From Leuctra nigra (taxonomy: Eukaryota > Arthropoda > Insecta > Plecoptera > Leuctridae): a stretch of 64,000 bases of DNA. Positions 7,201 through 43,996 of the stretch are shown here, piece by piece (within the stretch, counting starts at the first letter, position 1; every line of letters begins with the position of its first letter). The notes beneath the pieces were generated by a model, which searched no databases, was not told where the DNA came from, and saw only the letters and a program-made list of their open reading frames with translations. Both the position numbers and the translations under genes were made by a program. The stretch is taken from positions 19,276,309 to 19,340,308 of the forward strand of contig OW203766.1 in the NCBI GenBank assembly GCA_934045905.1, written 5' to 3'.

Positions 7201-10200
7201 ATATTACCTATAAGACTGACTTTGTAATACAATGCTTAAATTGTTCACTACAAATAAATAAATACAATACAACGAAGAATTGCAGAATTTGAAGTGGCAC
7301 CAGATGAAGACTCATCTGAAGATGAGAACAATTCAACACTGTACATCTCAACACTCACCGCCAAAAGCGTGAATGCTGTGAAGAAGACAGAAGATCTTGC
7401 CAGAGCATGGATTGTAGATGTCAATGTTGGTGGACAGAACGTCAAGATGAAAGTCGACACTGGTGCGGAGGTAAGCTGTTTGCCATTGACTTTATTTAAA
7501 CAATTTAAAGGCAGGCTTCAGAAAACTTCCACGGTACTGGTAGCTTTTGGGAACCAGAAGATCAAACCAGCAGGAACTGCTAAGGTTCATTGTATTAAAA
7601 GTAGCTGCATTAAAGGAGTAAAACAAGTTGTGAAATTCATGATTGTTGATGAAGAGTTCATGCCACTACTGGGACTGCCGGATTGTGTCAGTTTGGGGTT
7701 TGTCAAAATGATTAATCACATAGAAACATCTAGCAAAACCAGGCAACAGATCATCGCAGAAAATCCTCAAGTCTTCAAAGGTCTCGGGTGCATGCCGGGA
7801 ACGTATTCGATTGCAGTGGATGCCAACTGTCGTCCAGTCGTCCAACCATCCCGGAAGGTGCCTATCGCTCTTCGAGACAAACTTCTTCTTTGAAGAAGGC
7901 GCTGAACGACCTGGAGGAAAGCCAGGTGATCAGGAAAGTGACAAAACCTACTGACTGGGTGAGTAACCTAGTGATTACGGAAAAGAAAAATAAATCTTTA
8001 CGGCTGTGCTTGGACCCTATTGATCTGAACAAAGCCATCAAGAGGGAGCATTATCCATTTCCATCTGCGGAAGAGGTCCAGGCTCAACTACAAGGCATGA
8101 ACGTGTTCTCGATCCTTGACATGCGAGATGGGTTTTGGCAGGTCAGTCTCGATGATGACAGTGCTGACCTGTGCACATTTAATTCACCTTTTGGGAGATA
8201 TCAGTTCCTCAGGATGCCTTTCGGAATTAAATCAGCTCCAGAAATCTTTCAAAGAAAGAACACCGAGAACTTTGGGCACATCAAAGGTGTTCAAGTCATA
8301 TTTGATGATATTATTGTCGCAGGAGCAACCATCGCAGATCACGACAAAGCACTTCAGGAACTACTAGAACGAGCCGAAGAACTCAACATCAGGTTCAACC
8401 CGGACAAGTTCCAGTTTCAGGTACGAGAAGTACGCTATCTTGGACATGTTATGTCTAGTGAGGGAATGAAGACAGATCCAGAACGTGTCAGAGCAATTGT
8501 AGAGCTTCCGACTCCTACCAACGTAACAGAGCTAAGACGGTTTATGGGAATGGTTAATTATGTAGGGCAATTTATTCCCAATCTATCATCAATTACGGCT
8601 CCGATTCGCATGCTGCTGAAGAAGGATGTCAACTGGGAATGGAATCGTGAGCAAATGAAGGCTGAGTCGGAGGTGAAGAGTCTTTTATCATCTGCTCCTG
8701 TTTTAGCAGAGTTGGGTAGTAACTTAACGAAAGTAACTAGTTACTTTTAAGGTAACTTTTGGGGTAACTAGTTACTTTTCATCCTCAGTAACTTTGTGAG
8801 TAACTAAGTTACAATTTTACAGGAACTTGTAACTTAATTTTCGTTACTTTAAAAGTTACTTTTAGGTGAAATAATTTGACAAAAATATAATATTTTCACA
8901 GTCTACAAACTCCCTATCTACCTCTTGAGAGAAAATCATAAACCCAGACAACAAATCACAGGAAATGAAATGAGTGTCCTTCCTTCCCATTGATCTATTT
9001 CCTTCCACAAGTCATTAGCAGGTAGTTGGGTTGGGGGATGCTTGCAGATGCGCTGCAAGTTTTTCCGAGAATCATACCAATCCAAAGTGAAAACAAGTAT
9101 GACGTCATTCATTACTAGCCAATAAGGGTCGTTTTTACATAAAATGTACCTATACCCAATCAGATGCAGTCTTTCACAAATCAAAGCGATTGTCACATGG
9201 ATGGACCATTTAAAGAAGTGAAGAGAACGAGGTGCATGCAATAAATTTACCAGTTACCGCGAGTGCAATTTAAATTTATTTTTTTGATTGTGAGCACGAT
9301 GACTGTGAGTAAATACAAATAATAAAATTGCTTTGCTCGCCTATTAGACGAACAAGTTAAACCCTCGGCGGAGTTCAATCACGTTTGTTTTTTTTCGAAA
9401 AAATATCCGAAAAGTAACTTTAAAGTAACTTAAAAGTAACTCAGTTACTTTTCAAATCAAGTAACTTACCAAGTAACTTAGTTCCTTTTGAGATCAGGTA
9501 ACTTACAGAGTAACTAGTTCCTTTTTACAAGTAACTTACCCAACTCTGTGTTTTAGCATACTATGACAGCTCCAAGCCTTTAATCCTACAAGTAGATGCC
9601 TCGAAAAGCGGATTAGGAGCTTGCCTTCTGCAGGAGGGCCGACCGGTGGCTTATGCATCGCGTAGTATGACCGAGACGGAAATTCAGTACGCTCAGATTG
9701 AGAAGGAACTTCTAGGCATTGTGTATGGAGTAGAAAAATTTCACTATTACGTCTATGGTAGAGCAACCATCGTGCAAACAGACCACAAACCGTTGGTCTC
9801 TATCATGTCAAAGCAAATCAACAAGGTTTCGCCGCGGCTGCAAAGGCTCCAGTTGAAATTAGTAAAATACGATCTGGATATTCACTATATTCCAGGTTCT
9901 CAGATGTATATGGCTGACACACTTTCCAGAGCATACTTACCTGAGACAGGAAACGTGGACCCCGAGATGGAAGTTACTGTTCACAGTGTGTCTAAACATC
10001 TGGCAATGTCGGAAGAGAAGAGGACGGAATTCCGAGAAGCTACAGCAGAGTACGATGTAGCCAACGCACTGAAGGAACTACACAAGAATGGATGGCCGGA
10101 GCATAAATGGCAGATCCCGAGCTGCGTGAAACCATACTGGTCCCTAAAGGAAGAAATCACGGTAGATGACGGTCTTATCTTCTTTGGTGATCGAGTTTTG

Positions 10201-13200
10201 GTGCCTCCCTGTCTCCGTCGTCGAATGTTAGAATTGCTTCACGAGGGACATATGGGAATTGAGAAGACCAAGAATCGTGGACGTCAATTACTGTTCTGGT
10301 TAGGAATGAGCAAAGACATAGACGAACTAGTGCGTAAGTGCAGTACATGTGAACATTTCCGTGACAAGAATGCCAAGGAACCTCTGCACCCCCATCCGAT
10401 ACCCAATCGGCGATGGGAGGTTATAGCAGCGGATGTACTGGAGTTCAAGGGAAAATCATACTTGATGGTCAAGGATTATTACTCGAAATGGCTTGAGTTG
10501 GTGGAACTGCAAAACAAAACTGCAAAAGAATTAATCAATAAGATGAAAGCTATATTTTCCAGGAATGGTATTCCAGCCAGACTTGTTTCGGACAACATGC
10601 CATTTAGCAGTGCCGAATTTCGCACATTCGCCAAAGACTGGAACTTTGAATCCATCACGTCCAGTCCACGGTACCCACAGAGCAACGGGATGGCAGAGAA
10701 CGGTGTCAAGATCGCCAAACGTATGTTGAAAAAGTCCTATCACTCCGGAACCGATATCTATATTTCCCTGTTAGAGTACCGAAACACTCCGATTACTGGA
10801 TTATCATACTCTCCAGCTCAACTCATGGTTAACTGTCAATTAAAATCCAAACTTCCTATTTCGAACCATTTACTTGAACCAAAAATCCAAACTGATGTAA
10901 GACAACAGTTACAGCAAGTTCAAGACAAACAGAAATTGTTTTATGACAGGCGTGCAGTTCCTTTGCCTCAGTTAAAGGAAGGTGACCACGTGGTGTACCG
11001 TCACAATCAACTCTGGGAGCCGGCTATTGTGGACCGGACCTGTACCCAACCACGGTCGTATGTAATCAGACGACCTGACGGCAGTGAGCTCCGGAGGAAT
11101 CGGCGAGACCTCTCAAAATCCTTTGCCGACCATAAGATAGAGACGGATACATTACCTGAAGACATACCCGACACTACCCAGGAGCTTGAAATTCAGCCCG
11201 AGTTTGTGCCACCTGCCCCTGACAGTCCTCCACCTCAAATTCGACGAAGTGGAAGAGAAAGGAAGAACCCCGATAGACTCAAGGACTATGTGTAATATCA
11301 TTCATGTGTGAATTTCAGCTTAGGTTGTGATTGTAACTTATTGTATTATTCAATGATTAAGGGTTCTTGCTTGGAAAAATTTGTATCTCAGTGTCGTGTA
11401 ATTGATATTGTATGGTGTGATCATTTCCTTTATGGATTAGCACTTTGTTACAGACAGTCTGCTATCAGTAGTAATTTTTAAGTAGGAGGGAAGGTGTAAT
11501 GATCCTATCATAATGATTGTATCCATGCATTATGTAAGATTTAAATATAGCCGCCACAGATCGGTTTAGCAGGCTGTGGGACCGCAAGCGGGAGTCGAGA
11601 ACGACCGGACAGTCAGTCAGTCAAGGACAGCCATTGAACATGGACGACTCTGTATGTATCTTTATTAAATAAAGAAGTGAACCCACAAATATGTTTTATT
11701 AATTATCCTGCATAGTATTTGTGGTCAACCTAGTTCGAAGAACATTACACAGGCAGTGCCCGCCAAGAGTGGAGATAGTTATTCAGAACCAGTTCTTCCC
11801 CGATGATATTGGTATGATCTCTGACTGAACCTGTGCTCCAGCATCTTCCTGCAGGCGATGGAGAAAGTGACGGAGAAGAATCCCGACGCTCTGCATCTGG
11901 AGCAAGCAGACAGTTCCTTCACGTTCTTCGCCCCGTCGGACCTCGCCTTCCAGCAGCAGTTCGGAGCGAGGAGGCTGGAGAAGATCATGAACGATCTGCC
12001 GTACCTCACCAAGGTGAAACCTGATACATTGTGCTCACAGTGTCCAGCTGATGATATGATAATCATCAGCAAATACGTACAAAAAACATCTTACAACAGA
12101 TTGGGAAGTGGGCAGAAACATGCAATTAGTGTTGTTGAAAGTATGTTGACATTTTGATCGGTAAACTTTATTTTTTCGGTTCTCCACTATGAATATCGGA
12201 ATGTTTGTAAAATTTAAAAATTTGTTTTATGTTCTGTTATCAAATTCCAATATAATAATGTAATAATTACTTTCTTTACTTTTACTATAATGTAATATAT
12301 GTGGAAGAATACTCTAAACGCACAACATTTCTCTAATTATTTATAAGAAAATGTTGATACACCCATTCGAACAAACAAATCAACAGCATTATCAGGACGT
12401 GTGATGTTGACGTCGTTGTACATATTTTGTTGCTGTTGATGATGATAATGTTGCTGTTGATGATGAAGATGATGATGATGACGTTTGTTTGACAGATCGT
12501 CAAGAACCACGTGGTGGAGAACATGATGTGCTCGGAGTCGTTCAAGAAAGATCTGACGTACGAGTTGAAGACGCAGCAGAACAGCGTCAACGTCTACAGG
12601 AAGAAAGGCGGCCACTCCAACCACTCTCTCATGGTAAGTCCACTCCTATCTCATTCATTCTTATTCACTTTTGTATCTTCCCCAAGCTCCAGGGGCCAGA
12701 TTCACAAAAAGTATCAACTCCTAATACGTAGGACCCAACGGCTGGTGTGTTGGATACCTCGGTTCTCGTTAGATCACCGAGGTTAAGCAACATTGAGCGC
12801 GGTCAGCGATTGGATGGGTGACCATTCAACTCTGCCTTGCCAGGTTGCTGCCGTTGGGCCAGAGAGACTGGGGTGTTTGGGGGTTAGTGTGATGACCTCC
12901 CTCCACCTGTTATCAGTCTCTCGACGGCGCGGGTTGTGGAGGCTCGTGCTGTGAATGTTACACCGTCCTTCGGTAGGGACGTTAAGCCGTTGGTCCCCTT
13001 GGTATCTTTCGTCAGGAGTAGGCTACATGCCGGTACCGGGTTTCCTCTCCTCCCTTCTCTATATTACATTCTCACTAGTGGAGCCTCGGCTCTGTTGAGA
13101 ATATAGACTTAATAATAATAATAATAATAATAAAAGTATTATCTTTTGATTTAGTACCAAAAACACCATGTTAAATAAAAGATAATACCAAAGATAGTAC

Positions 13201-19877: not shown

Positions 19878-20774
19878 TCACATCTTGGTTATGCCTAACA
19901 CAGAAAAGATGACAGTAAGGTCGCCATCCGGAGCGGGGTCAAAGTCCAACTCAATTGCGTTCTTGCTGCCGAGGGCACATTCTCCCAGCGCGAGCGGCGA
20001 CATTTTGTAAGTCTGATTCCTCCCCTCGTTCGGATCAGTCATCGGCAAGGACGGTGAATAGGGAATCATCGGTGCAACCGCCAGGTTGACCTTGAAGCTG
20101 CATGCGTGAACATCGGGTCCGATGTACCTTGAGAAAAACATAATCTTATTCGTCGTGTATCTTGAGAAAAACACAATCTTACTCGTCGATATACGTCTGC
20201 AGCTTATCCAGAAGTATTCGTTTTCATCGTTCCCCTTGACGATCATTGTGAATTCGGTATTGTCAAATGGAAACCCAACCAGTTTTAACGAATCAGGAAT
20301 AATGTCCGTGATGAGCAAAACATTCTCTGAATGTTTCATTTGAGCGTGATCATAAAGTTCCTCGGCATTTCCAACAAAATCGCAAGTATAGCCCTGCAGC
20401 ATACATTTGTAAGCAGGCTTGTATCTGCAGTTACGATAATGAACCTCTAGATCTTCCTCTCTGTTTCTCTTGACTCCACATCCCTTCGGCTGGAACTTGC
20501 AAGGGACGGTGAGGACTCGGTCGCTGAGGGTGTCCAAGGGGAGGTTGCGGGTGGAAGGAGTTCCTGGTACACCGCACACCGGACATTGCTCCACCTTCTC
20601 CTTGCAGTCGGAACAGAGCACGTGCCCGATCACGCACGTGAAGATCGGGGCTTGGCAGGACTCGAGGCAAGCACGACATTCCAGGATCTCAAACACGGAC
20701 TTAACGATGTTCTCATTGACATCTTTTGTTCTTGGTATTTTGTCATCGACATCTTTCGAAAACAGTCCACCCAT
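19878..20774 (-). CDS. SIAH/Sina-like RING E3 ubiquitin ligase, paralogue 1
   Basis: 298 residues, intronless. Predicted to pass ubiquitin from an E2 to substrates held by its C-terminal domain. The RING uses C33, C36, C47, H51, C54, C57, C64 and C67 (ECRACLESC, GHVLCSDCKEK, CPVCG). The SIAH-type double zinc finger follows (CKFQPKGCGVKRNREEDLEV, then C116, C124, C131, H143, H148). The rest is the TRAF-like sandwich (NEYFWISCRR, FSRYIGPDVHACSF). The N-terminus MGGLFSK has Gly2 and Ser6, the pattern for N-myristoylation. An internal 36-bp duplication gives FFSRY twice. A TATA-like TTAAATAT lies on this strand near 20,860. Paralogue 2 is at 24,770-25,603. Confidence 0.88.
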   Translation of the reverse strand: MGGLFSKDVDDKIPRTKDVNENIVKSVFEILECRACLESCQAPIFTCVIGHVLCSDCKEKVEQCPVCGVPGTPSTRNLPLDTLSDRVLTVPCKFQPKGCGVKRNREEDLEVHYRNCRYKPAYKCMLQGYTCDFVGNAEELYDHAQMKHSENVLLITDIIPDSLKLVGFPFDNTEFTMIVKGNDENEYFWISCRRISTSKIVFFSRYTTNKIMFFSRYIGPDVHACSFKVNLAVAPMIPYSPSLPMTDPNEGRNQTYKMSPLALGECALGSKNAIELDFDPAPDGDLTVIFSVLGITKM

Positions 20775-24769: not shown

Positions 24770-25603
24770 TTATAATAAAATGTCCATCTTGGTTACGTCC
24801 TGCACAGAAATCGTGAAAGTAATGTTGCCATCCAGAGTGAGGTCAGAATCGTCCAACAACACCGTGTTCTTGCTGACGAGATCATCTTCATCCAATGTGA
24901 GCGGAGACCTGTTGAATTGCATGGTCGTCGCCGTCGCCCTCGACTCAATCTTCAGGTGGACGCTGAACTTAGATGCGTGTACATCGGGCCCGATGTACTT
25001 CGAGTACACGACGATCTTCCCCGTGGGCCTGAACATACATCTGACACATATCCAGAAGTATTCGTCTTCAGCGTTCTCCTTGAAGATAACTGTGACTCTT
25101 TCATTTCTTAACGTATTAAGCACAACCCCGCATTTCTTCGGGATAACCAAAACATTCCCTGAATGTTCAATTTGAGCGTGTTCATAAAGTTCGTCGCCAC
25201 TCCCAACAAAATCGCAATAAGGCTGCACCAAGCATTTGTAAACAGACTTGTATCTGCAGTTACGATAATGAACCTCTAGATCTTCCTCTCTGCTTCTCTT
25301 GACTCCACATCCCTTCGGCTGGAACTTGCAAGGGACGGTGAGGACTCGGTCGCTGAGGGTGTCCAAGGGGAGGTTGCGGGTGGAAGGAGTTCCTGGTACA
25401 CCGCACACCGGACAGTGCTCCACCTTCTCCTTGCAGTCGGAACAGAGCACGTGCCCGTTCACGCACGTGAAGATCGGAGCTTGGCAGGACTCCAGGCAAG
25501 CACGACATTCCAGGATCTCAAACACGGACTTGACGATTTGTTCATTGTCTTCTTTTGTTCTTGATATTTTGTCATCGACATCTTTCGAAAACAGTCCACC
25601 CAT
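24770..25603 (-). CDS. SIAH/Sina-like RING E3 ubiquitin ligase, paralogue 2
   Basis: 277 residues from the ATG at 25,603 (MGGLFSKDVDDK). The RING and SIAH zinc fingers have the same zinc ligands as paralogue 1; the TRAF-like C-terminus (DEYFWICVRCMF, YSKYIGPDVHAS) is clearly diverged. The first ~115 codons are almost identical to paralogue 1 even at silent sites. A second in-frame ATG four codons upstream (25,615) lies in an inserted foldback element and would add MWSI, burying the myristoylation-type Gly2. I chose the inner ATG because paralogue 1 starts there. Confidence 0.86.
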   Translation of the reverse strand: MGGLFSKDVDDKISRTKEDNEQIVKSVFEILECRACLESCQAPIFTCVNGHVLCSDCKEKVEHCPVCGVPGTPSTRNLPLDTLSDRVLTVPCKFQPKGCGVKRSREEDLEVHYRNCRYKSVYKCLVQPYCDFVGSGDELYEHAQIEHSGNVLVIPKKCGVVLNTLRNERVTVIFKENAEDEYFWICVRCMFRPTGKIVVYSKYIGPDVHASKFSVHLKIESRATATTMQFNRSPLTLDEDDLVSKNTVLLDDSDLTLDGNITFTISVQDVTKMDILL

Positions 25604-25794
25604 AATAGACCACATTTTAAATTATCTAGTTAGCTCTGCTTTTCAAAAAATTTCATATGCAGTACCGTGATCCTCATATCTATTCATGTTATTATCCATT
25701 GTTGAAAAACACTAATAGATATTAGGATCACGGTACTGCATATGAAATTTTTTGAAAAGCAGAGCTATCTAGATAATTTAAAATGTGGTCTATT
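25604..25794. mobile_element. Foldback element touching the start codon of SIAH-like gene 2
   Basis: 81-bp arms 25,604-25,684 and 25,714-25,794 are inverted repeats with only about two mismatches and a 29-base loop. Comparison with paralogue 1 shows the surrounding 5' flank (CATAA...TTGTTCCAATTG) is continuous without it, so it is an insertion. No ORF. Confidence 0.9.
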
Positions 25795-25940: not shown

Positions 25941-27150
25941 CTGCTCTAAACTGCTCTAAGTCGCTCCAAATCAACTTGCACCAGCCATACTTCCTGTAAG
26001 GCCGACGAACACAATCACATGTTCCAAAAGCTGCTGAGCTCTTTAATGGTAATACTTTTTTTTTTAATGTCAAATGTTAATTTAAAAAATATTTTTGAAA
26101 TTGGAAAAAATACTTTGTACATTGAGTGTGAATCAACAGAAAGTATTGAAGTATTAGCCAGACATCAACATTGTATCTGACTGTCCAACTGATCTCTATA
26201 CTTCCACTTCGTTGCGTGGCATTCAACCCCTTCAGCATTAGTCCCAGTAAAGTCGAAAATTCATTGAAAATTTAAAAAAATTATCTTACCTATAGTTACC
26301 CAGTTCTGTCTGTCTATCTGTGTGTGTGTGTGTCAGGAACGGTTGCGCGCTTCGATTTGACATTGGTATTTATTGAAAACTATAACTAAGATGGAGGCGT
26401 TTTATTGCCATCATGTCTAAAATTACATCTTCTGCCTTTTGTGAATAAATTAATAACCGAAACTCACCTAAGACGAGCACCTTATCCTTTTGTAATTATA
26501 ATAAATTCATAATAAGATACTAATACGGTCTAAACCAGCACATGACATTAAAAACGTCATCTCGGCAAGAAACTTCAAATGTTATTTTTCTTATTTTCTC
26601 TTGCTCTGAATTTCGTAGGCCGTGAACATGATCAAACCAAAGTCGATGGAGTTATATTATACATTTTCTTGGGAAATAATTTTCCTTCGTTTCTTATTTA
26701 CTAAGAGTGGTGTGTATTGAGTCATGTAAACGACGTCAAGTTACTGTTGGTAATGTTTTAAACATCAATGCTTAAATTTTTACATTGCATACTGATAGGT
26801 ACCTTAGAGGCAGATGGGCGGAAGACAATTTTAATGATTCTTAAAGTGATCTCAATAACCAGTAATTCTGAGCTGAATTCTTCATCCAATCATATTTGTA
26901 ATGGTGACATGGGCCTTCTGTAAGGGTACCTATACTTCAATATAACTGTATTTGTTAACATCAGTCCAATGGTAGGTACTTATAGAGCTTGATTACCATT
27001 CCAAAAGTGTGCACTGAGAAATCCAAAACATATGACCTTCCGCTCTTATACCTACCTCTGACCTCAGAGAAACGGATATAATGAAGCTCACCATGCATTC
27101 ATAGTTTGCACGAGCTTCATTTGTTTTTCATCAACAATGTAAAAAAGTAA
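25941..27150. other. Non-coding spacer
   Basis: AT-rich. A short GT repeat lies near 26,318. No supported gene. Confidence 0.5.
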
Positions 27151-27260
27151 ATTTCAACCATTTTACAGATGTCAAGTCGATTAATGCTAATTATAAGCGG
27201 TTAATCAAAGATATTTGGTATATGAGGTGGTTTTATACCCATAATAGAGACTACTCCAAG

Positions 27261-28853
27261 ATGGCGGACGGTGACCAGTGCGCTGGCGATGGGTCCCGAG
27301 AAATAAGTGTTTTAAGCATAAATGACCTAAAGATTGAACTTGAAAAACGTGGTGAATCGGTTCGTGGAGTGAAGGCGGTGCTAGTGGAACGTTTAAAAGC
27401 TTCAATTATTACTGAGGCTCTTCGCAAAAGCGAAAACAGTGCTGCGGTGACCGATTGTAAACAATGTGACGTGTGGAAACGCCTTGCTAATGCTAGCGAA
27501 CGTGAAGTGAAAACCACGCGGGAACTTGTTGCTGAAATGAAGAAGGTATTACATCTTACGGAAGAAAAGAATAGGAATATGGAAGTGAAGATAAGAGATC
27601 TAGAAAAACTGGGGAAGCGCGAAGCTGATAATTCTGAGGTTACATGGCCAAACGTAAGTAACTTAATTTTCAACCGTGAGACGGTGCTACAGTCGACAGG
27701 GCCGTCCATGGCAAAATCATTTCAATCACCTGGGCAGAAGAACGTAAACAAAACAAAACCGGTGCCTAGCAAAGCAAAGCCAGATATTGACATCGACAGC
27801 AAATTAAATACCAGGATTACTGAGGTAAGAAATGATCTGTTTTCCCCTTCGAATACAGCTTCCCTGGCCCATTGCGTCTCGAAATCTTACACTATGGACC
27901 AGGGCATAGCAGTCGACTTTAAAACTAGATTTGGTCGCGTGGAAGAATTGAAACAGCAAGAGAAGGAAGTGGGGCAGGTTGCATGGATTGAAGAGGAGGG
28001 AAGGAAGATTTTCTACTTAATCACTAAGGAGGAGCATTTCCAGAAGCCTACTTTGAATACTCTGACTAGCGCCCTCACTGAGCTCCGTGACCTGTGTGAA
28101 GAACACAACATTAAGAGGCTCGCGATGCCTAAATTGGGGTGTGGAAAAGATAGTTTACATTGGGTCAATGTCAAACCAATTATCGAACAAGTTTTTGCAG
28201 ATGTTGATATAGAAATAGAAATATTTACTCTGACGAGACAACAACACGCTGAAATGGAAAAGAAGAGGAGAGGAACCCAGAATATCGAAGAAAAATATAA
28301 GAGGATATTGCGAGAAAATGAAGAGCAAAGCGAGCACTACCCAAAGGTGACAAAGAAGGTGTTAATATTGGTCGATTCGATGATCAGAGTTGCAGGCGAC
28401 CTTTGCAAGAGACACGGATGCGAAGTCGGCGTTTACCCGGGGATTCGAGTGAATGAACTTTCTTCAGTGATACAACGCAGAGACGACGAAAGTGAACCGG
28501 ACCTTATCATCATTCATGTTGGTACAAATAACATTAAATTTAAAAGCAACTCACATCTGATGGTAGAATTAAATGATTTGATAAATAAGGGGCAAAAGAA
28601 ATATCCAAATGCTAAATGGTCGTTAAATGGAATTGTGTACAGAGGTGACGTATACGATGGGGTAGTAAATAAGCTAAATGAGTCGATAGAATGGTTATGT
28701 AACGAAAGGCATTTGTTATATTTCGACCCAAACACAAAATTGTCAAAGCATGACTCAGCTAAAGACGGAGTGCATTTGAATTACAAAGGTGGGATGAAGT
28801 TAGGGCACTCGATGGTTGAGCACATTCAAAATCAGTGCAATTCGGAAAACTAA
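27261..28853 (+). CDS. LINE ORF1 with SAP, TARG1-like macrodomain and SGNH esterase
   Basis: 530 residues from ATG 27,261 (CAAGATGG context). (1) SAP-type DNA/RNA-binding motif, residues 16-50 (LSINDLKIELEKRGESV). (2) Charged, probably coiled-coil segment, about 70-120. (3) Macrodomain, about 187-325: NDLFSPSNTASLAHCVSKSY, GIAVDFKTRFG, FYLITKEE and PKLGCGKDSLHW follow the TARG1/OARD1 branch, and Lys256 and Asp297 stand where that family has its catalytic Lys and Asp. It should bind ADP-ribose and may remove it from acidic residues. (4) SGNH/GDSL-type hydrolase, about 365-526: LVDSM (Ser373), HVGTNN, and KDGVHLNYKG (Asp502, His505). SGNH domains are known in CR1-type ORF1; the macrodomain is unexpected. 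No zinc knuckle seen. Confidence 0.9.
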   Translation: MADGDQCAGDGSREISVLSINDLKIELEKRGESVRGVKAVLVERLKASIITEALRKSENSAAVTDCKQCDVWKRLANASEREVKTTRELVAEMKKVLHLTEEKNRNMEVKIRDLEKLGKREADNSEVTWPNVSNLIFNRETVLQSTGPSMAKSFQSPGQKNVNKTKPVPSKAKPDIDIDSKLNTRITEVRNDLFSPSNTASLAHCVSKSYTMDQGIAVDFKTRFGRVEELKQQEKEVGQVAWIEEEGRKIFYLITKEEHFQKPTLNTLTSALTELRDLCEEHNIKRLAMPKLGCGKDSLHWVNVKPIIEQVFADVDIEIEIFTLTRQQHAEMEKKRRGTQNIEEKYKRILRENEEQSEHYPKVTKKVLILVDSMIRVAGDLCKRHGCEVGVYPGIRVNELSSVIQRRDDESEPDLIIIHVGTNNIKFKSNSHLMVELNDLINKGQKKYPNAKWSLNGIVYRGDVYDGVVNKLNESIEWLCNERHLLYFDPNTKLSKHDSAKDGVHLNYKGGMKLGHSMVEHIQNQCNSEN

Positions 28854-28975
28854 TATGTGTTGGGGGGGCTGGAAATGAGATCATTGCTTTGCCTGGTAAC
28901 TCAAGCAAAAATACATTCACCGAGAGGCTGCACAAACATGATAAGTTAGTAAACAGAGCTGAGGGCTCAAACAAC

Positions 28976-31957
28976 ATGTATTTAAAGATAAGTCACCAGA
29001 ATGTACGAAGCCTAAGAGCCAAAATGAACCAGCTTGCCATCTTATTTGAAGATGATGACGATCAAACTAGCGAGTATGACATCGTTACTTTCACAGAGCA
29101 TTGGCTAAGTGAGGCAGAGGCAAATATGATGCAATTGCATAACTATAGAATGAGTGACTCATATACCAGAACTTGTCATATAGGAGGGGGAACGATAATA
29201 TATGTGCGAAACAACCATAAAGCACTGAAAAGAGCGGAATTTCAAAATTTGAATTCTGATAAACATTTCGAGTGTTCAATTGTAGAAATAAATGAAATAA
29301 ACAATGTATGCTGCGAACATATTATCATTATAACGGTGTACAGAGCCCCGACAGGTATATTCGACGTATTTCTTGATAGTCTCTCGAAAATATTGGATGT
29401 TATTAGCAACGAGAGAAAACACATCATTATCACCGGGGATTTTAATATAGACTTTGTGAAAGAGTCAAAAGAGCTGAATGACCTTAGCACTGTAATCAAT
29501 TCATATAACATTCAAGCACTAATAACCTCCCCAACCCGGGTCACGAATACTACTTCCTCGGTCATTGATAACATTCTGACTAATATAGACAAGCGCGTCA
29601 TAACAACTCAAGTGACTGAAAATGGAATTTCAGACCATACTCAACAGGTTGCGAGGATTGAAACATTTACATTTCTCAAATCCAGTAAACAAGAAATAGT
29701 TGCCACACCAATTGCATGGTGCAGACCAATAAACAAAAGCAAAATTGATTTATTTAGAAATAGGCTAAATATTGAGTTGTGGGAAAATATCAATGAATTT
29801 AACAGTGTAAATCAAAACTTTGAACTATTCATGAATATCTACCTTGAACACTATAATATAGCATTCCCTTTAGTAAAAAAGAAGCAGCAAACAACTAAAC
29901 GACTACAAAATAATGGTTGGGTAACAGAAAATATTCGAGTAGAAAGTCGCCTCCTAAAGACTATGTTTGAAGAAGCAAGGGATTATAAATGTGATTTTAA
30001 AAGGGAAAAGTATAAAACAATGAAAAGTCTACACCGTAAAAACATCAAAGATGCTAAGATATTACATAACAAAAATATTGTAGAACATGCAGCTAATAAA
30101 CCAAAGATGATTTGGGACATTGTTAAACAGGAAACTGGAGCTAAAAGCCATGAAATAAAAGAAGAAAATCTTGAGCTTATTGTCAACAATAAATTGATAC
30201 AAAACCCATTAACGATTGCTAATAATTTCAATAATTTCTATCTAAATGTCGCGAATGAAGTAAACTCAAATAACAATGTAACTGACCTGGAGCAATCAGA
30301 GCTTACTGAGAATATAGAACGCATACCAGATTGCATAGTACTTTTACCTACAACAAGTAAAGAAGTGATAGATATTGCAATGAAGTTAAAGAATACAAAT
30401 GCAGTAGGTATAGATGGTATTACAGCACGAGTAATTAAGCAGACTATTCATGTTACAGCTCACGTATTGTCAGCATTGATAAATCAATGTCTCAAAGATG
30501 GTATTTTCCCAAATTATCTTAAGACAGCTATAGTAAAGCCAATATTTAAAAACAAGGGCTGTAGGGCTGACATGATCAATCATCGACCTATTTCCTTACT
30601 AACTATATTCTCTAAAATATATGAAAAAGTGATTAAAAACAGACTTCTTACTTTTATAGGTGCAAATAAAATTCTAGCCAATAACCAATTCGGATTTAGG
30701 CCCCACATGTCTACAACAGATGCGATCGATGATAGCATTTCATATATATTACAGTCCATGGACAAAAGTAAGTGCACTCTTGGGTTGTATTGCGATCTTC
30801 AGAAAGCTTTTGATTGCCTTGATCACCATCTGCTTGCAAAAAAATTAGATAGAATGGGAATAAGAGATACTGCTCACAACTTAATTATGTCTTACTTAGA
30901 GAATAGGCAACAGGTAGTTGAAATTATGCACATATCAGATGATGGCACAAGGCGAAAAGTACAATCTAATAAGGGTACAATAACTTCAGGTATTCCACAA
31001 GGTTCGGTCCTGGGACCAATAATTTTCAATCTTTATGTCAACGATTTGGAGAGCAAGCTCCCGAACGTCAAAATTACTAAGTTCGCGGATGACACCACCA
31101 TAGTAGCCGTGGGAAATAATATTCTGGAAGCCGAACAAAATTTGAATAAAACGTTAAGAAATGTAAATAAGTGGTTTGAAGTAAATAAGCTAGCCCTAAA
31201 TAATTCAAAAACACAGCTACTAGCGTTTCGCAATCCGCACAACACGACCATAGATGTTGCTCCACCAAAAGTTGCAAATGGCTCAGTAAATATTAATGTA
31301 ACAAATTCAACTCGATTTCTTGGAGTTCAAATTGACAAAAACCTAAACTGGCATGAACATATCAACAACCAGAAGCTCAAACTAACGAGAGCCTGTTATG
31401 CATTGAGAATCCTAAGAAGTAATTTTGACATTTCCACGATGAAAACCATTTATTTGGGATTGTTTGAACCTTTATTGAGGTATGGTATAATATTCTGGGG
31501 GGGAGTACATTATGCTTGCAAATTGTTTACAGTGCAAAAATCGGCATTACGCATTATTCATAAAAAGTGGAGGCGCTTTTCATGCCGAGAACTATTCAAG
31601 GAGTTTAAAATTCTAACATTGTCAAGCTTATATATATATGAAATAATAATTCAAATCAGGAAACACGTCCATTTGTTTGAAACATCGGGGGATGTACATC
31701 ACTATAATGTAAGAAACCAAAACAAACTACGAAACTTTCAACATAAAACAGCGCTCTATGAACAGGACCTATCATATAAAGGAGTAAATCTATATAATCA
31801 CTTGCCAAGCTGTATCAAAAAAATAGAAAGTATGTTGTTGTTCAAACTAAAATTAAAATTGTTCCTTATTAATGGAGGCTTCTATTCTGTTGACGAGTTT
31901 TTAACTACTTGTAAAAGTCATGTTTGTGATGACCAGCAGGGAGAATGTGGTACTTGA
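28976..31957 (+). CDS. LINE ORF2: AP endonuclease and reverse transcriptase
   Basis: About 993 residues from the ATG at 28,976, directly before the endonuclease (MYLKISHQNVRSL). The same frame is open further left and overlaps the ORF1 end, so a non-ATG or coupled start is possible. Endonuclease motifs: QNVRSL, TEHWL, GDFNIDF, SVIDNILTN, SDHTQQ. RT motifs: HRPISLLTIFSKIYE, CDLQKAFDCLDH, GIPQGSVLGPIIF, FADD near 31,084, then LLRYGIIFWGG and the C-terminal FYSVDEFL. All key residues are present. It is expected to nick the target and copy the element's RNA at the nick. Confidence 0.92.
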   Translation: MYLKISHQNVRSLRAKMNQLAILFEDDDDQTSEYDIVTFTEHWLSEAEANMMQLHNYRMSDSYTRTCHIGGGTIIYVRNNHKALKRAEFQNLNSDKHFECSIVEINEINNVCCEHIIIITVYRAPTGIFDVFLDSLSKILDVISNERKHIIITGDFNIDFVKESKELNDLSTVINSYNIQALITSPTRVTNTTSSVIDNILTNIDKRVITTQVTENGISDHTQQVARIETFTFLKSSKQEIVATPIAWCRPINKSKIDLFRNRLNIELWENINEFNSVNQNFELFMNIYLEHYNIAFPLVKKKQQTTKRLQNNGWVTENIRVESRLLKTMFEEARDYKCDFKREKYKTMKSLHRKNIKDAKILHNKNIVEHAANKPKMIWDIVKQETGAKSHEIKEENLELIVNNKLIQNPLTIANNFNNFYLNVANEVNSNNNVTDLEQSELTENIERIPDCIVLLPTTSKEVIDIAMKLKNTNAVGIDGITARVIKQTIHVTAHVLSALINQCLKDGIFPNYLKTAIVKPIFKNKGCRADMINHRPISLLTIFSKIYEKVIKNRLLTFIGANKILANNQFGFRPHMSTTDAIDDSISYILQSMDKSKCTLGLYCDLQKAFDCLDHHLLAKKLDRMGIRDTAHNLIMSYLENRQQVVEIMHISDDGTRRKVQSNKGTITSGIPQGSVLGPIIFNLYVNDLESKLPNVKITKFADDTTIVAVGNNILEAEQNLNKTLRNVNKWFEVNKLALNNSKTQLLAFRNPHNTTIDVAPPKVANGSVNINVTNSTRFLGVQIDKNLNWHEHINNQKLKLTRACYALRILRSNFDISTMKTIYLGLFEPLLRYGIIFWGGVHYACKLFTVQKSALRIIHKKWRRFSCRELFKEFKILTLSSLYIYEIIIQIRKHVHLFETSGDVHHYNVRNQNKLRNFQHKTALYEQDLSYKGVNLYNHLPSCIKKIESMLLFKLKLKLFLINGGFYSVDEFLTTCKSHVCDDQQGECGT

Positions 31958-32215
31958 TTATTCTAGTTTTGTTTTAATACTCTATGACTACACTTCTTCA
32001 AATTATTATAATTATATTCATAAATGTATTTTGTATTTTGTATTTTAATGTGTATAAATATGTGTAAATTGACGGGTATGATAAGACTTACGACTTGAAT
32101 GTTTCGTTTTATTGACATGACATATACATTGTTTTTTAATTGCATCACTGTAATACTGAACATGTCCTTTGTTGAAATAAATAAATAAAAAATAAAAAAA
32201 ATAAAAAAAAATAAG

Positions 32216-33218
32216 AATTTCTTCTGCAGTTTATTGCACAGGTAACCATTATATCACCACAATACCGAAACACAGATTGACAGCCGTTCTGACACGTTAC
32301 ACCAATGTGGCCTCTCAACAATGAGATGATGTCACGTGCAAACTATGAATTGGTATCACAAATAAAGAATGTGTCGTGTGTATCGGGTCACGATATCAAC
32401 TTCACCTATATTTTAACGGCGCATTATGACACTATACATTTTCTTAATTTTCTTACTAATACTCATGGTCATGGTTTACATTTGAAGACTTATGTAATTG
32501 ATTTACCATAATAGGTATGATTAAATTGCCTTCCTTCGTACCTCATTTACGTATTTTGTTGGGCATTTGGTCTGTTAATTACGTAACGTGTGTATTAACG
32601 ATGCACAATCTGCTGACAAATATTGCTGTCTTTTTATATTTAATATTTATGCATACCTCACTGGTGCGCATTGGTCATGTTATACATGACGGGACCCTCT
32701 AGTATTGAAATAATATATTGGAAACTTGTAAAATAAGAGAACATGGTAGTGTTAATCGCTATGCAAAATTTAAAGTTGATCTGAATATTTTAATTGTTCA
32801 ACCGATAAAGAGAAAAAATTATTTTAATTTTAGCCAATGAGAGGATTAAGCTGAAATTTATATCTCGAAATCTATACGACGACCTCAAAAACTGTAAAGA
32901 ATGTTGATTTGATAGGTCAAACGGTGTGAACATAGGCCATTAGGTATAGGCTATTTTCATTGTTCAACCAATCTGAGATCAGCGCTCAAAAACTATAGAT
33001 ACTACATGATTAAGATTGATATTAATAAATTTGAGCTCGATCGGAAAACCAATATAACCTGTGGCGTACAAAAAAAAACGAAAAAAGGGGAAAGTGTCAA
33101 AAAAACTTTATGGAGCCGCTCTCTTTATAATATACCTACTAGTGTCAGAAGAAGACAGAGTATTATGAATGAATAATTTTATTGATCAACATACCAACAG
33201 CTTGAGCATTAATTATTT
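32216..33218. other. Spacer with dispersed repeat copy 2
   Basis: No gene recognised. About 32,805-33,130 belongs to the AT-rich family of 14,970-15,310 (TTTTAGCCAATGAGAGGAT, TTTGAGCTCGATCGG, GGAGCCGCTC). Confidence 0.45.
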
Positions 33219-33656: not shown

Positions 33657-33847
33657 TCTTTGGTCCCATAGAGCTACGGAGTCTTGAGCCTAGCTTTTCT
33701 CATCTCGTGTTCGTTTTTCGTTTGGTTCTCGTGACGCATGAATTTTAGTTCAAGGTCACTCTCTCGTGATATTTCGTACATTCCGTACGTGTATCTCTTC
33801 GCTGTTTCGTTTGAACCCCTGTTGTTTAATTTTTGTACTTATTCGTT

Positions 33848-36800
33848 ATGGAAGCCCAACGCAAGATGCAAGATTTGTTTGTTAAACAAAGACAACAAGT
33901 TTTCAGTTCTGTTCAGCGAACGTTCGATTCGTTTAAAGCCTTGCAACGCGATCAAGTTTTAACCGCTCAACCTAGGTATGACAGACTGATGCATCAGCAA
34001 TCTGAGTTTGACTCTATTCAAGCGAAAATCCTCGAGTTGAATTCGGATCTCATTTCACCCAACAAAGCCATTGAAGTGGAGAAAGTTCAAGATAGCTTTG
34101 AAACCGTACTCTACGGCGCACAGGCGAAATATATCGCAGTACTTAATGAATATCAAGATAGCCGCAAGGAAACTCAGTCAGCGACTACGCCGTCAATGAC
34201 CTTGACCACCAATACCTTGCCTGTCATTGACATTCCAAAGTTTGACGGAACCAACATGAACAAGTGGACAGAATATTATTCATTATTTACCTCGCTCATT
34301 CACGAGAATAATTCATTGAATGACATTCAAAAGTTCCATTACTTGCGTTCCACTTTGTCAGGCACTGCTTTATCCGTTATAGCAGGTTTCTCATTAGCCA
34401 AGGAGAACTATGTGCTAGCTTTGAATGCCCTAGTGAATCGCTATCATAACCCAAGGTTATTAGCATCTGTCTACGTGAAGCAAATACTTGATTTCACGCC
34501 TCTCAAGTCTAATCAGCACTCTGGACTTCAGAGTTTTCTACAAGTTCACAAAAACAACGTAGAAGCTCTAAAATCACTGCAAGACATCGGCGATTTGGCA
34601 GATTATCTTCTGTTCTCTCTCACCTTGCATAACCTTGACCTTGGTACTCGCAAGGCATTCGAGAATAAACATTCCTCGCGATCAACTCCCACGTATGCTT
34701 CGCTAATCACCTTTGTTGAAGAACAATCGCGAACCATGGAATTGTGCGGCTTGGATGTTTCCACGACTATTTCTAAAGCGAAACCTACCCCCTCCCCCGC
34801 CAGGAAAATGAATTCCTTTCTCGCGACGAAACCAGTTCTCTCAGCGCGCGCCTCTGCCATGCCCAGCCATGCCTCGTGCCCTCTTTGCAAGGAAGGTCAC
34901 ACTCTTTATCGTTGCCCTCTCTTTACAGCGCAATCTATTGCTGAGAGATACGTCACTATACGTCGTTTACAACGCTGTTTTAATTGTTTGGGGAAACATT
35001 TACGATCTGCATGCACTTCTAAGAGTGTTTGCTCAACGTGTCGTAGCAATTCGCATCATTCAATGCTTCATCCTCCGACTCCCGCCAACACTTCGACAGC
35101 TCAAGGACAGCGTCCAGCCAGCTCCGCGCCAGAAGTTCAGCAGGAAGCTGTCAACACTTCAACCTCGGCAAACAATGAAACCATTGCTAACAGCGACGCC
35201 TCTCTCACGCAATCTCTTGCTTGTCATTTCCAGACAAGTAAACCTACTCATCAGACGGTGTTGCTAGGCACCGTTACCGCCTTGATTAGCGATTGTCAAG
35301 GTCGCTACCACCCTCTTCGAGCCGTCATAGACTGTGGTTCACAGGTTTCCGCAGCTTCTCGCTCCTTAGTTCAAAAGTTAGGGCTGAAAATCACTCCCAG
35401 TCATTCTCAGCTAGTTGGAATTGGAAACGCTTCTGCTCAGGTTTACGGCGTTGTTCAGTGCAGTCTCGCCTCGCGTCATAATCCTGATACCCCTCTCAGT
35501 GTTCAGGCTCTCGTCCTGTCCACCATCTCGAATCCACTTCCATCTTCGCCAGTTTCTCTCGACGTTTACGAACGTTATCGTGGCCTCTCTCTGGCCGACT
35601 CTCGCTTCGATGTACCGGATCAGATTGACTTTCTGATCGGCGCAGACCTGTACCCAGACATCTTAAAGACGTCGGGCGACATGGTCATTCGAGGAAACCC
35701 CTCTGCTCTGAATACCATATTTGGATGGGTTATATTGGGACCTGTACAGTCAGATCAAGCCTCGACCCAGTCCCCACTCTCGTTGTTGGCGTGTTCGACG
35801 ACGCCGTTGGACCGCACCCTCCGTCTCTTCTGGGAATCAGAAGAGGTTCATCGCCCTCCACAACTGGATCCTGACGATCAATTGTGTGAGGAACACTTCG
35901 TGAAGACGCACCAGCGCGACTCGTCTGGTCGCTATTCAGTGGCTCTTCCGTTCAAGCCGTCGTCAGCTCCTCTCGGCGCCAACCATAACGCCGTCCTCCG
36001 GAATTACCTCAGCCTGGAACGACGCCTGAAGCGGGAACCCGACCATGATGCAGCTTACCAAGCCTTCATGCAAGATTACTCCGAGTCTCGTCACATGACG
36101 ACTGCACCACGATCTTCGAGTTACATTATCCCTCATCACTGCGTCTACAAGTTGTCCAGTTCCAGCACGAAACTCCGAGTCGTGTTCAACGCCTCTTCTC
36201 CTGACGACAAAGGTGTTTCACTCAATTCTCAGCTTTTGAGTGGTCCGAAGCTTCAAGCCGAGCTTCCTGACATTCTCACATCATTTCGGACTCACGCTAT
36301 CGCCATCTGTGCAGATATTAAGCAGATGTATCGGCAGATTTTGGTTCATCCTCAAGACCGCCGTTTTCAACACATCTTGTGGCGATCTTCTCCGACCTCC
36401 CCGGTAATCGAGTATGAATTAAATACCGTTACCTACGGACTCTCACCCTCTGCGTTTCTCGCTCAACGAGTTCTCCGCCAGCTTGTCCTTGACGAAGGTC
36501 CGCGTTTTCCTCTCGCCTCGCGTGCGTTGAGAGACCACACCTACATCGACGACATCGTCACCGGTGCCCGTGACCTTCCTGAAGCTCAAGATCTTCAAGC
36601 GCAACTTCAAGGTCTTCTCGCTAGAGGAGGTTTTGAACTCCGGAAGTGGTCCTCCAATCTTCCAGACGCCTTGAATACTCTACCTGCTGACCATCTGGAA
36701 TCGCCTCTTGTTTTCGCCAACGAAGACCAGGGAATCAAAATTCTCGGACTTCTATGGGATCCTCGTACTGACACCTTTTCATTTCACACTCGCCCATTCG

Positions 36801-39097
36801 AAGGTATTGTGACAAAGCGCACTGTGCTCTCCTACATTGCCCGGATATTTGATCCGCTTGGATTTGTCACTCCTTTCGTCTGCTGGATGAAAATCTTCTT
36901 GCAGCAGTTGTGGCTTGTTCTCACACAATGGGATGATCCTCTCTCCGATCAGCTGACGCAAAGCTGGTCTACAGCAGTATCCGAAGTGTCAGCACTCTCT
37001 AGTTTTCGCGTCCCGCGTGTCCTGCCGGACCGTCGCGGCGTCTGTCGACTAGTTGGTTTTTGCGACGCTTCTGAACGAGGTTATGCTGCCGTTCTCTACC
37101 TGCATACCTCGACTCCCGTCTCATCTTCTGTCTCTTTACTGCGCGCTCGCAGTAAAGTAGCTCCCGTCAAACCTCTGACTATTCCCAAACTTGAGTTGTC
37201 AGCAGCCGTGCTACTCGCTCGTCTACTCAAGGACATTTCTCCGTCGCTCAGCGCCCTCGCCGTGGACTCCGTTGTGCTCTACACGGATTCTACCATCGTC
37301 TTGGCTTGGCTCGCCACGTCTCCACATCGCCTCAAGACTTTTGTCGCCAACCGTGTTGTGGAGATCTTGGAGTCCTCCGCTCCGACCGACTGGAGGCATG
37401 TTGCTTCGACCGACAACCCGGCAGACTGCGCTTCTCGTGGCATCTTACCGTCCCAGCTGTTGGATCACCCTCTATGGTTGAGTGGACCTAGTTTCCTGCA
37501 CTCGTCGCCAGTTACGTGGCCGCGATCGTCGCCTCCCCTCGAACCTCCAGAGGAGATGCCTGAGATGAAGACGACGACGACCATCTTGGTTACCAGCGTC
37601 CCCGTCGAGCCTCTTCACGTCAAACTGCAACAGTTTTCCTCGCTTCTCCGAGCTCAACGAGTATTCGGCCACGTCGTACGCTTTGCTCGCATCTTGCTGG
37701 CCAAGCGTTCTCAGTCTCCACGTCCTACTGGACCTCTGCTCCCCTCCGAGCTCCAAGATGCTCTCGATCTTCTCGTCAAGATCACGCAACATCATCATTT
37801 CGCTGTTGAAATTCATCAACTTGAACGACAGCAACCAGTCAATTCTCGTTTATCTTCGCTTCGGCCTTTCATTGACTCCTCGGGACTTCTCAAGGTGGGC
37901 GGTCGCCTCCGTCATTCCTCTCTTCCGAAGAATGCTCGTCACCCTCTACTGCTCCCTAAAGAAGCACACTTATCGACACTCATCTGTGATGAGTATCATA
38001 AGCGCTCTCTTCACGCCGGTCCTCGCACCGTGCAAGCCCTAATCCAGCAAACCTTCTGGATTATGTCTCTCCGCGGCTTACTTCGTCAACGGATACATCG
38101 CTGCCTCACGTGCTTCAAGTTCCGCGCTCACACGCCCCAACCCGTTATGGCTGATCTGCCATCAGCTCGGGTGCAAGCCTCCAGAGCCTTTCTTCATGTG
38201 GGCACCGACTACGCCGGCCCGTTCCGCGTGAAGACTTCGTCCCGACGAAACGCCCCAGTCACCAAGGGTTATCTGTGCGTGTTCGTGTGCATGGCCACCA
38301 AGGCCATACATCTTGAATTTGCTTCCGATCTGTCTACCGACTCTTTCCTCGCTTGTCTTGACCGGCTGATTTCTAGAAGAGGCCTCCCGTCAGACATATA
38401 TTCGGACAATGGACGGAACTTTGTTGGTGCTGCACGCCAGTTACGCGAAGTTACCGAGTTCCTCGTTCAATCGACCCCGCAGATCGCAGATTCGCTTTCT
38501 GCTCGCTCAATCCATTGGCATTTCTCCCCTCCCTACGCCCCTAACTTCGGCGGCTTGTGGGTAGCAGGGGTGAAATCTGCTAAAGGACTTCTTCACCGCC
38601 TTATCGGTGATACTCCACACACTCATGAGGAGTATGCTACCTTGTTCTGCCGGATTGAGGCAGTGCAAAATAGTCGACCTCTTTGTGCCTTGACTCCCGA
38701 TCCTGAAGAAAGTTGCTCCTACTTGACCCCCGGGCATCTTCTTATTGGTACAGCTCTTTTGTCGCCTCCTGAGCCTCTTGAGCTGGACATCACCCCTCGC
38801 TTATCACGCTGGCAGCATGTACGACAGGTACATCAAGCCTTCTGGAACCGCTGGCACTCCGAGTATCTACACACGCAGATGCAACGTGGGAAGTGGCGGC
38901 GCGACTGTCAGAATCTACAAGTCGGCGACGTTGTCTTCTACCGCGAGACTTCCACCAACCCTCTGGCGTGGCCAGTCGGCCGTGTCATCGAAACCATGCC
39001 CGGTCGTGATGGAATTGTGCGCGTAGTTTCAATTCAAACTTCGCACGGCACTTTCGTTCGCCCAGTTAGCAAACTGGTGTTACTGCCCCCTGCTTAA
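33848..39097 (+). CDS. BEL/Pao gag-pol polyprotein
   Basis: 1,749 residues from ATG 33,848 (MEAQRKMQDLF). Gag includes PKFDGTNMNKWTEYYSLFTS and the Cys/His stretch CPLCKEGHTLYRC...CFNCLGKHLRSAC...CSTC. The protease site reads VIDCGSQ near residue 493: DCG where most aspartic proteases have D(S/T)G. RT has IKQMYRQILVHPQDRRFQ and YIDDIV near residue 899. RNase H has GFCDASERGYAAVLY, PKLELSAAVL and LYTDS. Integrase has the HHCC zinc site near 1,384-1,421, then GTDYAGPF, YSDNGRNFVGA and the final acidic residue before NSRPLCAL. It ends at TAA 39,095-39,097. The enzyme set looks complete; the protease variant is the only oddity. Confidence 0.93.
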   Translation: MEAQRKMQDLFVKQRQQVFSSVQRTFDSFKALQRDQVLTAQPRYDRLMHQQSEFDSIQAKILELNSDLISPNKAIEVEKVQDSFETVLYGAQAKYIAVLNEYQDSRKETQSATTPSMTLTTNTLPVIDIPKFDGTNMNKWTEYYSLFTSLIHENNSLNDIQKFHYLRSTLSGTALSVIAGFSLAKENYVLALNALVNRYHNPRLLASVYVKQILDFTPLKSNQHSGLQSFLQVHKNNVEALKSLQDIGDLADYLLFSLTLHNLDLGTRKAFENKHSSRSTPTYASLITFVEEQSRTMELCGLDVSTTISKAKPTPSPARKMNSFLATKPVLSARASAMPSHASCPLCKEGHTLYRCPLFTAQSIAERYVTIRRLQRCFNCLGKHLRSACTSKSVCSTCRSNSHHSMLHPPTPANTSTAQGQRPASSAPEVQQEAVNTSTSANNETIANSDASLTQSLACHFQTSKPTHQTVLLGTVTALISDCQGRYHPLRAVIDCGSQVSAASRSLVQKLGLKITPSHSQLVGIGNASAQVYGVVQCSLASRHNPDTPLSVQALVLSTISNPLPSSPVSLDVYERYRGLSLADSRFDVPDQIDFLIGADLYPDILKTSGDMVIRGNPSALNTIFGWVILGPVQSDQASTQSPLSLLACSTTPLDRTLRLFWESEEVHRPPQLDPDDQLCEEHFVKTHQRDSSGRYSVALPFKPSSAPLGANHNAVLRNYLSLERRLKREPDHDAAYQAFMQDYSESRHMTTAPRSSSYIIPHHCVYKLSSSSTKLRVVFNASSPDDKGVSLNSQLLSGPKLQAELPDILTSFRTHAIAICADIKQMYRQILVHPQDRRFQHILWRSSPTSPVIEYELNTVTYGLSPSAFLAQRVLRQLVLDEGPRFPLASRALRDHTYIDDIVTGARDLPEAQDLQAQLQGLLARGGFELRKWSSNLPDALNTLPADHLESPLVFANEDQGIKILGLLWDPRTDTFSFHTRPFEGIVTKRTVLSYIARIFDPLGFVTPFVCWMKIFLQQLWLVLTQWDDPLSDQLTQSWSTAVSEVSALSSFRVPRVLPDRRGVCRLVGFCDASERGYAAVLYLHTSTPVSSSVSLLRARSKVAPVKPLTIPKLELSAAVLLARLLKDISPSLSALAVDSVVLYTDSTIVLAWLATSPHRLKTFVANRVVEILESSAPTDWRHVASTDNPADCASRGILPSQLLDHPLWLSGPSFLHSSPVTWPRSSPPLEPPEEMPEMKTTTTILVTSVPVEPLHVKLQQFSSLLRAQRVFGHVVRFARILLAKRSQSPRPTGPLLPSELQDALDLLVKITQHHHFAVEIHQLERQQPVNSRLSSLRPFIDSSGLLKVGGRLRHSSLPKNARHPLLLPKEAHLSTLICDEYHKRSLHAGPRTVQALIQQTFWIMSLRGLLRQRIHRCLTCFKFRAHTPQPVMADLPSARVQASRAFLHVGTDYAGPFRVKTSSRRNAPVTKGYLCVFVCMATKAIHLEFASDLSTDSFLACLDRLISRRGLPSDIYSDNGRNFVGAARQLREVTEFLVQSTPQIADSLSARSIHWHFSPPYAPNFGGLWVAGVKSAKGLLHRLIGDTPHTHEEYATLFCRIEAVQNSRPLCALTPDPEESCSYLTPGHLLIGTALLSPPEPLELDITPRLSRWQHVRQVHQAFWNRWHSEYLHTQMQRGKWRRDCQNLQVGDVVFYRETSTNPLAWPVGRVIETMPGRDGIVRVVSIQTSHGTFVRPVSKLVLLPPA

Positions 39098-43914: not shown

Positions 43915-43996
43915 CGCGCACCCCGACTGGGAATCGAACCCAGATCCTTCGGGTTATCGGCTATGCTGTAACCATTAAGCTACCCGAGCGCGTTCT
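43915..43996 (-). repeat. tRNA-like SINE head or pseudo-tRNA
   Basis: On the - strand CTCGGGTAGCTTAATGGTTA looks like a pol III A box and GGGTTCGATTCCCAG is an excellent B box with a paired T arm. The acceptor and anticodon stems do not pair properly, so it is not a working tRNA gene. Confidence 0.55.

Follow-up and report, generated by a model that had tools for sequence, protein, structure and literature searches.

A TARG1-type macrodomain in the ORF1 of a LINE retrotransposon from Leuctra nigra and its recurrence in other LINE and Gypsy-like elements

The first open reading frame (ORF1) of a LINE retrotransposon in Leuctra nigra encodes a macrodomain of the TARG1/OARD1 type that retains both catalytic residues, and related domains are found in this genome in many other LINE and Gypsy-like elements. 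It is probably an ADP-ribosyl hydrolase, predicted to strip the element's RNA, cDNA or ribonucleoprotein particle (RNP) and so to undo a host PARP-based block. The element lies in what we call the window, the whole stretch of 64,000 nucleotides of contig OW203766.1 that was analyzed; coordinates refer to positions in this window, on the plus strand unless stated otherwise.

The macrodomain spans 27810..28232. It matches TARG1 (PDB 4j5r) in phmmer with an E-value of 3.6e-36, and the closest macrodomain fold in both Foldseek and VIA-align is again TARG1, with an rmsd of 0.7. The alignment with human TARG1/OARD1 (PDB 4j5q, 4j5r and 4j5s) is gapless at 44-46% identity and places Lys256 (28026..28028) and Asp297 (28149..28151) of ORF1 at Lys84 and Asp125 of TARG1, the catalytic dyad of that enzyme (PMC9411070, PMC7050489; the latter writes Glu125). 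Unlike the human protein, a stand-alone enzyme of ~150 residues, the LINE version is a module of a 530-residue protein, and its phosphate loop reads MDQGIA rather than MGAGIA, a site at which other family members vary too. The macrodomain of the DarG antitoxin is more distant (21-25% identity) and has kept the Lys of the dyad but not the Asp (PMC9411070, PMC7050489); since both residues are present here, the ORF1 domain is grouped with TARG1 and not with DarG. Membership in the DarG family was also rejected on score (65 bits against a cut-off of 250 in the curated NCBIfam model) and on context, the neighbors being parts of a LINE. The initial annotation had proposed a TARG1-like macrodomain with Lys256 and Asp297 in the catalytic positions, and had named the lack of a structural match to a macrodomain as what would speak against it. 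That match was found, and the searches, the gapless alignment and the copies described below uphold both the class of the domain and the placement of the two residues.

ORF1 (27261..28853, 530 residues) is organized as a SAP domain, a coiled coil, the macrodomain, a helical stretch and an SGNH esterase. The open frame called mechanically is longer, at 543 residues (in which the dyad is K269 and D310), and nearly all of its 13 extra codons (27222-27260) are flanking DNA. The SAP domain (27306..27401) matches Pfam PF02037 with an E-value of 5.1e-9 (36 bits, cut-off 23.9). It is followed by a long helix (27459..27626; residues 80-135 in the AlphaFold2 model) that is predicted to form a coiled coil, and a second long helical stretch (28236..28346; AlphaFold2 helices 339-369 and 374-398, of moderate to low confidence) occupies the interval between the macrodomain and the esterase. 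The SGNH (GDSL) esterase domain (28347..28850) has the expected Ser, Asp and His and lies slightly above the Pfam threshold (E 6.7e-8, 33.7 bits, cut-off 32.9); it also matches the esterase of the zebrafish L2-1 ORF1 protein (PDB 4c1b) in phmmer (E 6.1e-5). An SGNH esterase with these three residues and a predicted coiled coil together define a type IV (esterase) ORF1, as in zebrafish ZfL2-1, where a coiled coil accompanies a C-terminal esterase (PMC3905857). For the esterase ORF1 proteins of RepBase, that paper reports neither an RRM nor any other known structural RNA-binding domain, whereas the LINE described here adds SAP and TARG1 domains. Block I of the esterase reads VDS in the window copy (28371-28379), with G in place of V371 in the three other near-full-length copies; V371 is a private change of the window copy. 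In base composition, the macrodomain is not distinct from the remainder of ORF1.

The LINE itself is a near-full-length copy (27254..32214) whose 5' end falls within 27254-27258 and whose 3' end is an A-rich tail of AAATAA-type repeats (32175..32214). ORF2 (28976..31957, 993 residues) encodes an apurinic endonuclease-like domain (Exo_endo_phos_2, E 5.9e-9) and a reverse transcriptase (RVT_1, E 3.2e-36); with the A-rich tail and the dispersed copies, these features mark an APE-type non-LTR retrotransposon. Its ORF2 was compared with elements inside this genome. Searching the genome (536 Mb, 144 contigs) with the macrodomain DNA returned five places, comprising full-length matches at 99-100% on contigs C5 (the window), C9, C8 and C7 and a partial match at 96% on C4. 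Over 4.6-5.0 kb, the three other long copies align with the window at 98.6-99.8%; on C2 there is one more, 5'-truncated copy (L022), at 98.3%. In all four near-full-length copies, at their different sites, ORF1 is open and of equal length, so the macrodomain is present in further copies of the family, contrary to the second outcome that the initial annotation had named as speaking against its reading. ORF2 is intact in the window copy and in L008, stops early with an altered end in L009, and is broken and shortened in L007; of the C4 copy (L010), a 5' piece is left that has decayed and contains a stop. Five copies begin within a few bases of AAGATGG (window position 27258) after upstream flanks that are unrelated, which indicates separate insertions, and three end in the A-rich tail. 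Given this shared start, position 27261, nearly at the 5' end of the element, is most likely where the true ORF1 of 530 residues starts. Neither an exact-word search nor inspection by eye revealed a target-site duplication. A perfect 16-nt inverted repeat brackets the LINE (27097-27112 and 32335-32350), with one more match in the window at three mismatches, and may perhaps represent the ends of a small DNA transposon that the LINE entered. The C9 copy (L007) directly follows a tandem array with units of ~160 bp (L007 1-1493).

The domain is not confined to this element. A protein search of the genome with a 147-residue domain query gave 381 candidates, of which 150 were scored, the weakest with an E-value of 1.4e-26. 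Nearly all of these are free of internal stops (144/150), nearly all lie in an open frame of at least 300 residues (146/150), and many fall into classes of equal score spread across contigs: 136.9 bits (12 matches), 121.4 (11), 115.6 (7), 106.2 (7), 105.4 (11) and 102.3 (14, the largest class). The surroundings of 39 matches (L023-L061) were inspected, namely the 30 best and nine picked from other score classes; the 111 scored matches outside this sample, and the unscored candidates, may include host genes. Within the sample, 31 domains are in LINE ORF1s, seven are in Gypsy-like elements and one is unclassified. The LINE carriers comprise nine types: the family described above (L023-L026), L027-L030, L031-L046 with L049, and six single loci (L047, L050, L053, L054, L056 and L060). 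An ORF2 match with APE and reverse transcriptase domains lies near 30 of the 31, the remaining one (L033) displaying only the SAP and coiled-coil part. Among the Gypsy-like carriers, six have a Gypsy-type reverse transcriptase match (L048, L052, L055, L057, L058 and L059) and L051 has a retropepsin only. The initial reading of a TARG1-class macrodomain borne by a retrotransposon thus stands as to identity, while its restriction to a single element does not.

The settings of the domain vary considerably. It follows a SAP domain in the L027 and L034 types, lies between SAP and SGNH domains in the window LINE, precedes an SGNH domain in L047 and L060, and lies between a PHD finger and an SGNH domain in L053 and L054. 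In five of the seven Gypsy-like carriers (L052, L055, L057, L058 and L059), it is located between the protease and the reverse transcriptase. The SGNH matches of L047, L053, L054 and L060, and several of the Pfam Macro matches, are below the Pfam cut-offs; macrodomains with such scores were assigned by tblastn to the ORF1 domain. Different settings such as SAP-TARG1, PHD-TARG1-SGNH and protease-TARG1-RT argue for a function that belongs to the domain independently. At the unclassified locus, L061 (C13:45174500-45180500), a PHD finger is found upstream of the TARG1-like domain, and the locus adjoins a stretch that is open in three frames over >900 codons and is probably a long tandem repeat. 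A DNA search with the esterase detected a second LINE family (L019-L021), whose ORF1 esterase is 44-47% identical to that of the window element and whose ORF2 is merely 26% identical. Its ORF1 gave no SAP or TARG1 match (Pfam was run on the L020 ORF1 alone) and agrees in layout with the published picture of a coiled coil plus esterase (PMC3905857). The macrodomain is therefore dispensable for the LINE chassis.

Conservation of the dyad extends across this diversity. Both catalytic residues are present at 36 of the 39 loci, or in 15 of 17 types (nine LINE types, seven Gypsy-like elements and L061), even though the types are only ~38-50% identical to the window domain. The exceptions are L030 (Lys to Asn), L057 (Asp to Asn) and L060 (Lys to Arg and Asp to Glu); the L030 type retains the dyad in its three other copies, and the L057 and L060 types are each a single locus. 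An internal stop interrupts the match at three loci (L049, L051 and L061). Comparison of LINE types gives dN values of 0.38-0.50; dS is saturated in three of the pairs and reaches 2.2 in the fourth, L053-L054 (dN/dS 0.22), which indicates long purifying selection. The window and L009 ORF1s differ by eight synonymous and four nonsynonymous changes (one-sided binomial 0.0008 with a plain site share, and 0.006-0.018 with the synonymous share raised for transition bias). For the domain itself, pairs within families have changed too little to test for selection: dN/dS ranges from 0.14 to 1.4, on three to six changes, in the seven pairs where a synonymous change is present, and two more pairs differ by nonsynonymous changes only. 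In the decayed fragment L010, 12 changes are synonymous and 18 nonsynonymous.

Relatives are also present outside this genome. In the protein database, P0006 has a TARG1 domain before a retropepsin, in reversed order, P0007 (876 residues) combines a TARG1 domain with a zinc-knuckle motif, and aphid proteins of 551 and 612 residues, among others, carry relatives. The AlphaFold2 model of P0007 is confident for the macrodomain alone, so its assignment as a putative LINE ORF1 is based on a C-x2-C-x4-H-x4-C motif seen by eye and on sub-threshold zinc-knuckle hits. P0001-P0004 are 346-residue proteins with a dyad-bearing TARG1-like domain after a DUF4326 domain. A 78.8-kb contig from the viral collection (L001) contains a stand-alone TARG1-like ORF of 173 residues (512-1033), 42% identical to the LINE domain; the viral contigs yielded no close relative of the whole ORF1, of P0007 or of P0006. 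No relative was detected in a scan of prokaryote genomes whose narrow alignment was limited to two short motifs. In a tree of 14 domains, most forks are unsupported and the window domain pairs with P0013 at merely 80/75. In a tree of 26 domains, it stands alone beside five well-supported branches, with an unsettled bootstrap and an unsupported deeper order. The larger tree joins the LINE domain L047 with the Gypsy domain L052 (97/89), a grouping that indicates movement of the module between the two classes. Capture from a host, as the initial annotation proposed, from a virus or from a bacterium would be compatible with both trees.

ORF1 proteins of other LINEs coat the element RNA in cis, and SAP domains are nucleic-acid binders in other proteins. 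In the mechanism that we favor, ORF1p, acting in cis, would bring the macrodomain to the RNP and its cDNA. There the domain would clear ADP-ribose from RNA, cDNA or particle proteins of the same element, so that a PARP-based block by the host would be undone. This is the simplest mechanism because it suits LINEs and Gypsy elements alike. TARG1 strips ADP-ribose from nucleic-acid ends and, as the human enzyme, from acidic residues, from thymine in DNA and, according to a 2026 paper, from uracil in RNA; two of three Drosophila TARG1 proteins are active on a synthetic uridine-ADP-ribose probe (PMC7050489, PMC8501950, PMC13036486), and further TARG1 biochemistry is available (PMC9411070, PMC11102865). 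By analogy with this biochemistry, and with the dyad kept, the ORF1 domain is likely to be active as an eraser. A review suggests that hazardous RNAs, for example those derived from transposons, may be marked by ADP-ribosylation (PMC7050489). Since the domain is predicted to clear ADP-ribose marks, these are likely to be something that jumping genes must shed to survive in their host.

It is also conceivable, if unlikely, that the domain is a reader, in which case it would bind ADP-ribose to anchor the RNP at PARP-activated nicks or at stress granules, any hydrolysis being incidental. Macrodomains do serve both as readers and as erasers (PMC7050489), but a domain that only reads has no need of the Lys/Asp pair, the defining feature of the hydrolase, and here this pair is kept at nearly all inspected loci. 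Slightly less likely still is action at the target site, where the enzyme would trim ADP-ribose marks on histones, on DNA ends or on PARPs at the nick and thereby tune repair for insertion. Gypsy-like elements, however, also carry the domain, mostly between protease and reverse transcriptase, and they integrate via an integrase and not by target-primed reverse transcription; a role solely at the LINE nick would thus not suit all carriers. The range of TARG1 substrates, including nucleic-acid ends, DNA thymine and acidic residues (PMC7050489, PMC8501950, PMC13036486), is nonetheless what such a role would call for. PARP1 and PARP2 are reported to be engaged at human LINE-1 integration sites and to aid insertion (PMC8535693), so binding of PAR could help, and docking and action at the nick are retained as the main alternatives in part for this reason. 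That the domain is a passenger, picked up by chance and carried without benefit, is improbable: the L019-L021 family has related parts and lacks the domain, and three loci have lost dyad residues, but the several settings, the multi-copy classes, the scarcity of stops and a dyad kept at ~40% identity all speak against it. An assembly artefact or private fusion, for which nothing beyond the single window would speak, is excluded for practical purposes, as four copies on contigs of 30-39 Mb share this ORF1 but not their flanks, which are unrelated.

Removal of ADP-ribose by an element-encoded enzyme would have a parallel in the macrodomains of alphaviruses, coronaviruses and hepeviruses, parasites that counter host ADP-ribosylation (PMC7050489), although those are MacroD-type rather than TARG1-type and are 10-18% identical among the viral matches listed. 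Insect LINE proteins with a captured SF1 helicase likewise contain an enzyme domain of outside origin, which in that case came from an RNA virus and is not an ADP-ribose enzyme (PMC5563155). Parts of ORF1 are known to move between LINE lineages (PMC4120745; the words 'macro' and 'SAP' do not occur in its main text). No description of a macrodomain-bearing retrotransposon was found among open-licence PMC titles and abstract openings, and OARD1 together with retrotransposons gave no match in the open-licence PMC literature. An ADP-ribosyl hydrolase would join RRM, CCHC, PHD, esterase and helicase domains in the ORF1 repertoire. Enzymes that ADP-ribosylate the bases of RNA and DNA, and TARG1-type removers, are recent findings whose biological purpose is still open, and the many LINE and LTR retrotransposons with a dyad-bearing eraser suggest mobile elements as a target of base modification. 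More tentatively, and with somewhat less than even confidence, it may be that the host genuinely defends itself against transposons by ADP-ribosylating their RNA or cDNA, that retrotransposons of two classes have more than once acquired and exchanged a TARG1 eraser to defeat this, and that in this genome the eraser ranks among the commonest accessory modules of mobile elements.

The window contains several other elements. A Gypsy-like element, recognized by eye from its ORFs, covers 3022-11295, and nested within it is an APE-RT ORF of another LINE (4254-7118), 30% identical to the ORF2 of the LINE described here. Positions 33833-39097 contain a BEL/Pao retrotransposon whose single open frame is 1754 residues long, and a third LINE-like reverse transcriptase, with two ORFs and a sub-threshold zf-RVT match, is found on the minus strand at 52710-56588. 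Two similar ORFs on the minus strand (19878-20774 and 24770-25615; 298 and 281 residues) have the look, by eye, of SIAH-type RING/zinc-finger proteins and form a local duplication. A tRNA-like Rfam match at 43919-43989 on the minus strand (33 bits, gathering threshold 29) is absent from the ARAGORN output and may be a tRNA-derived repeat.
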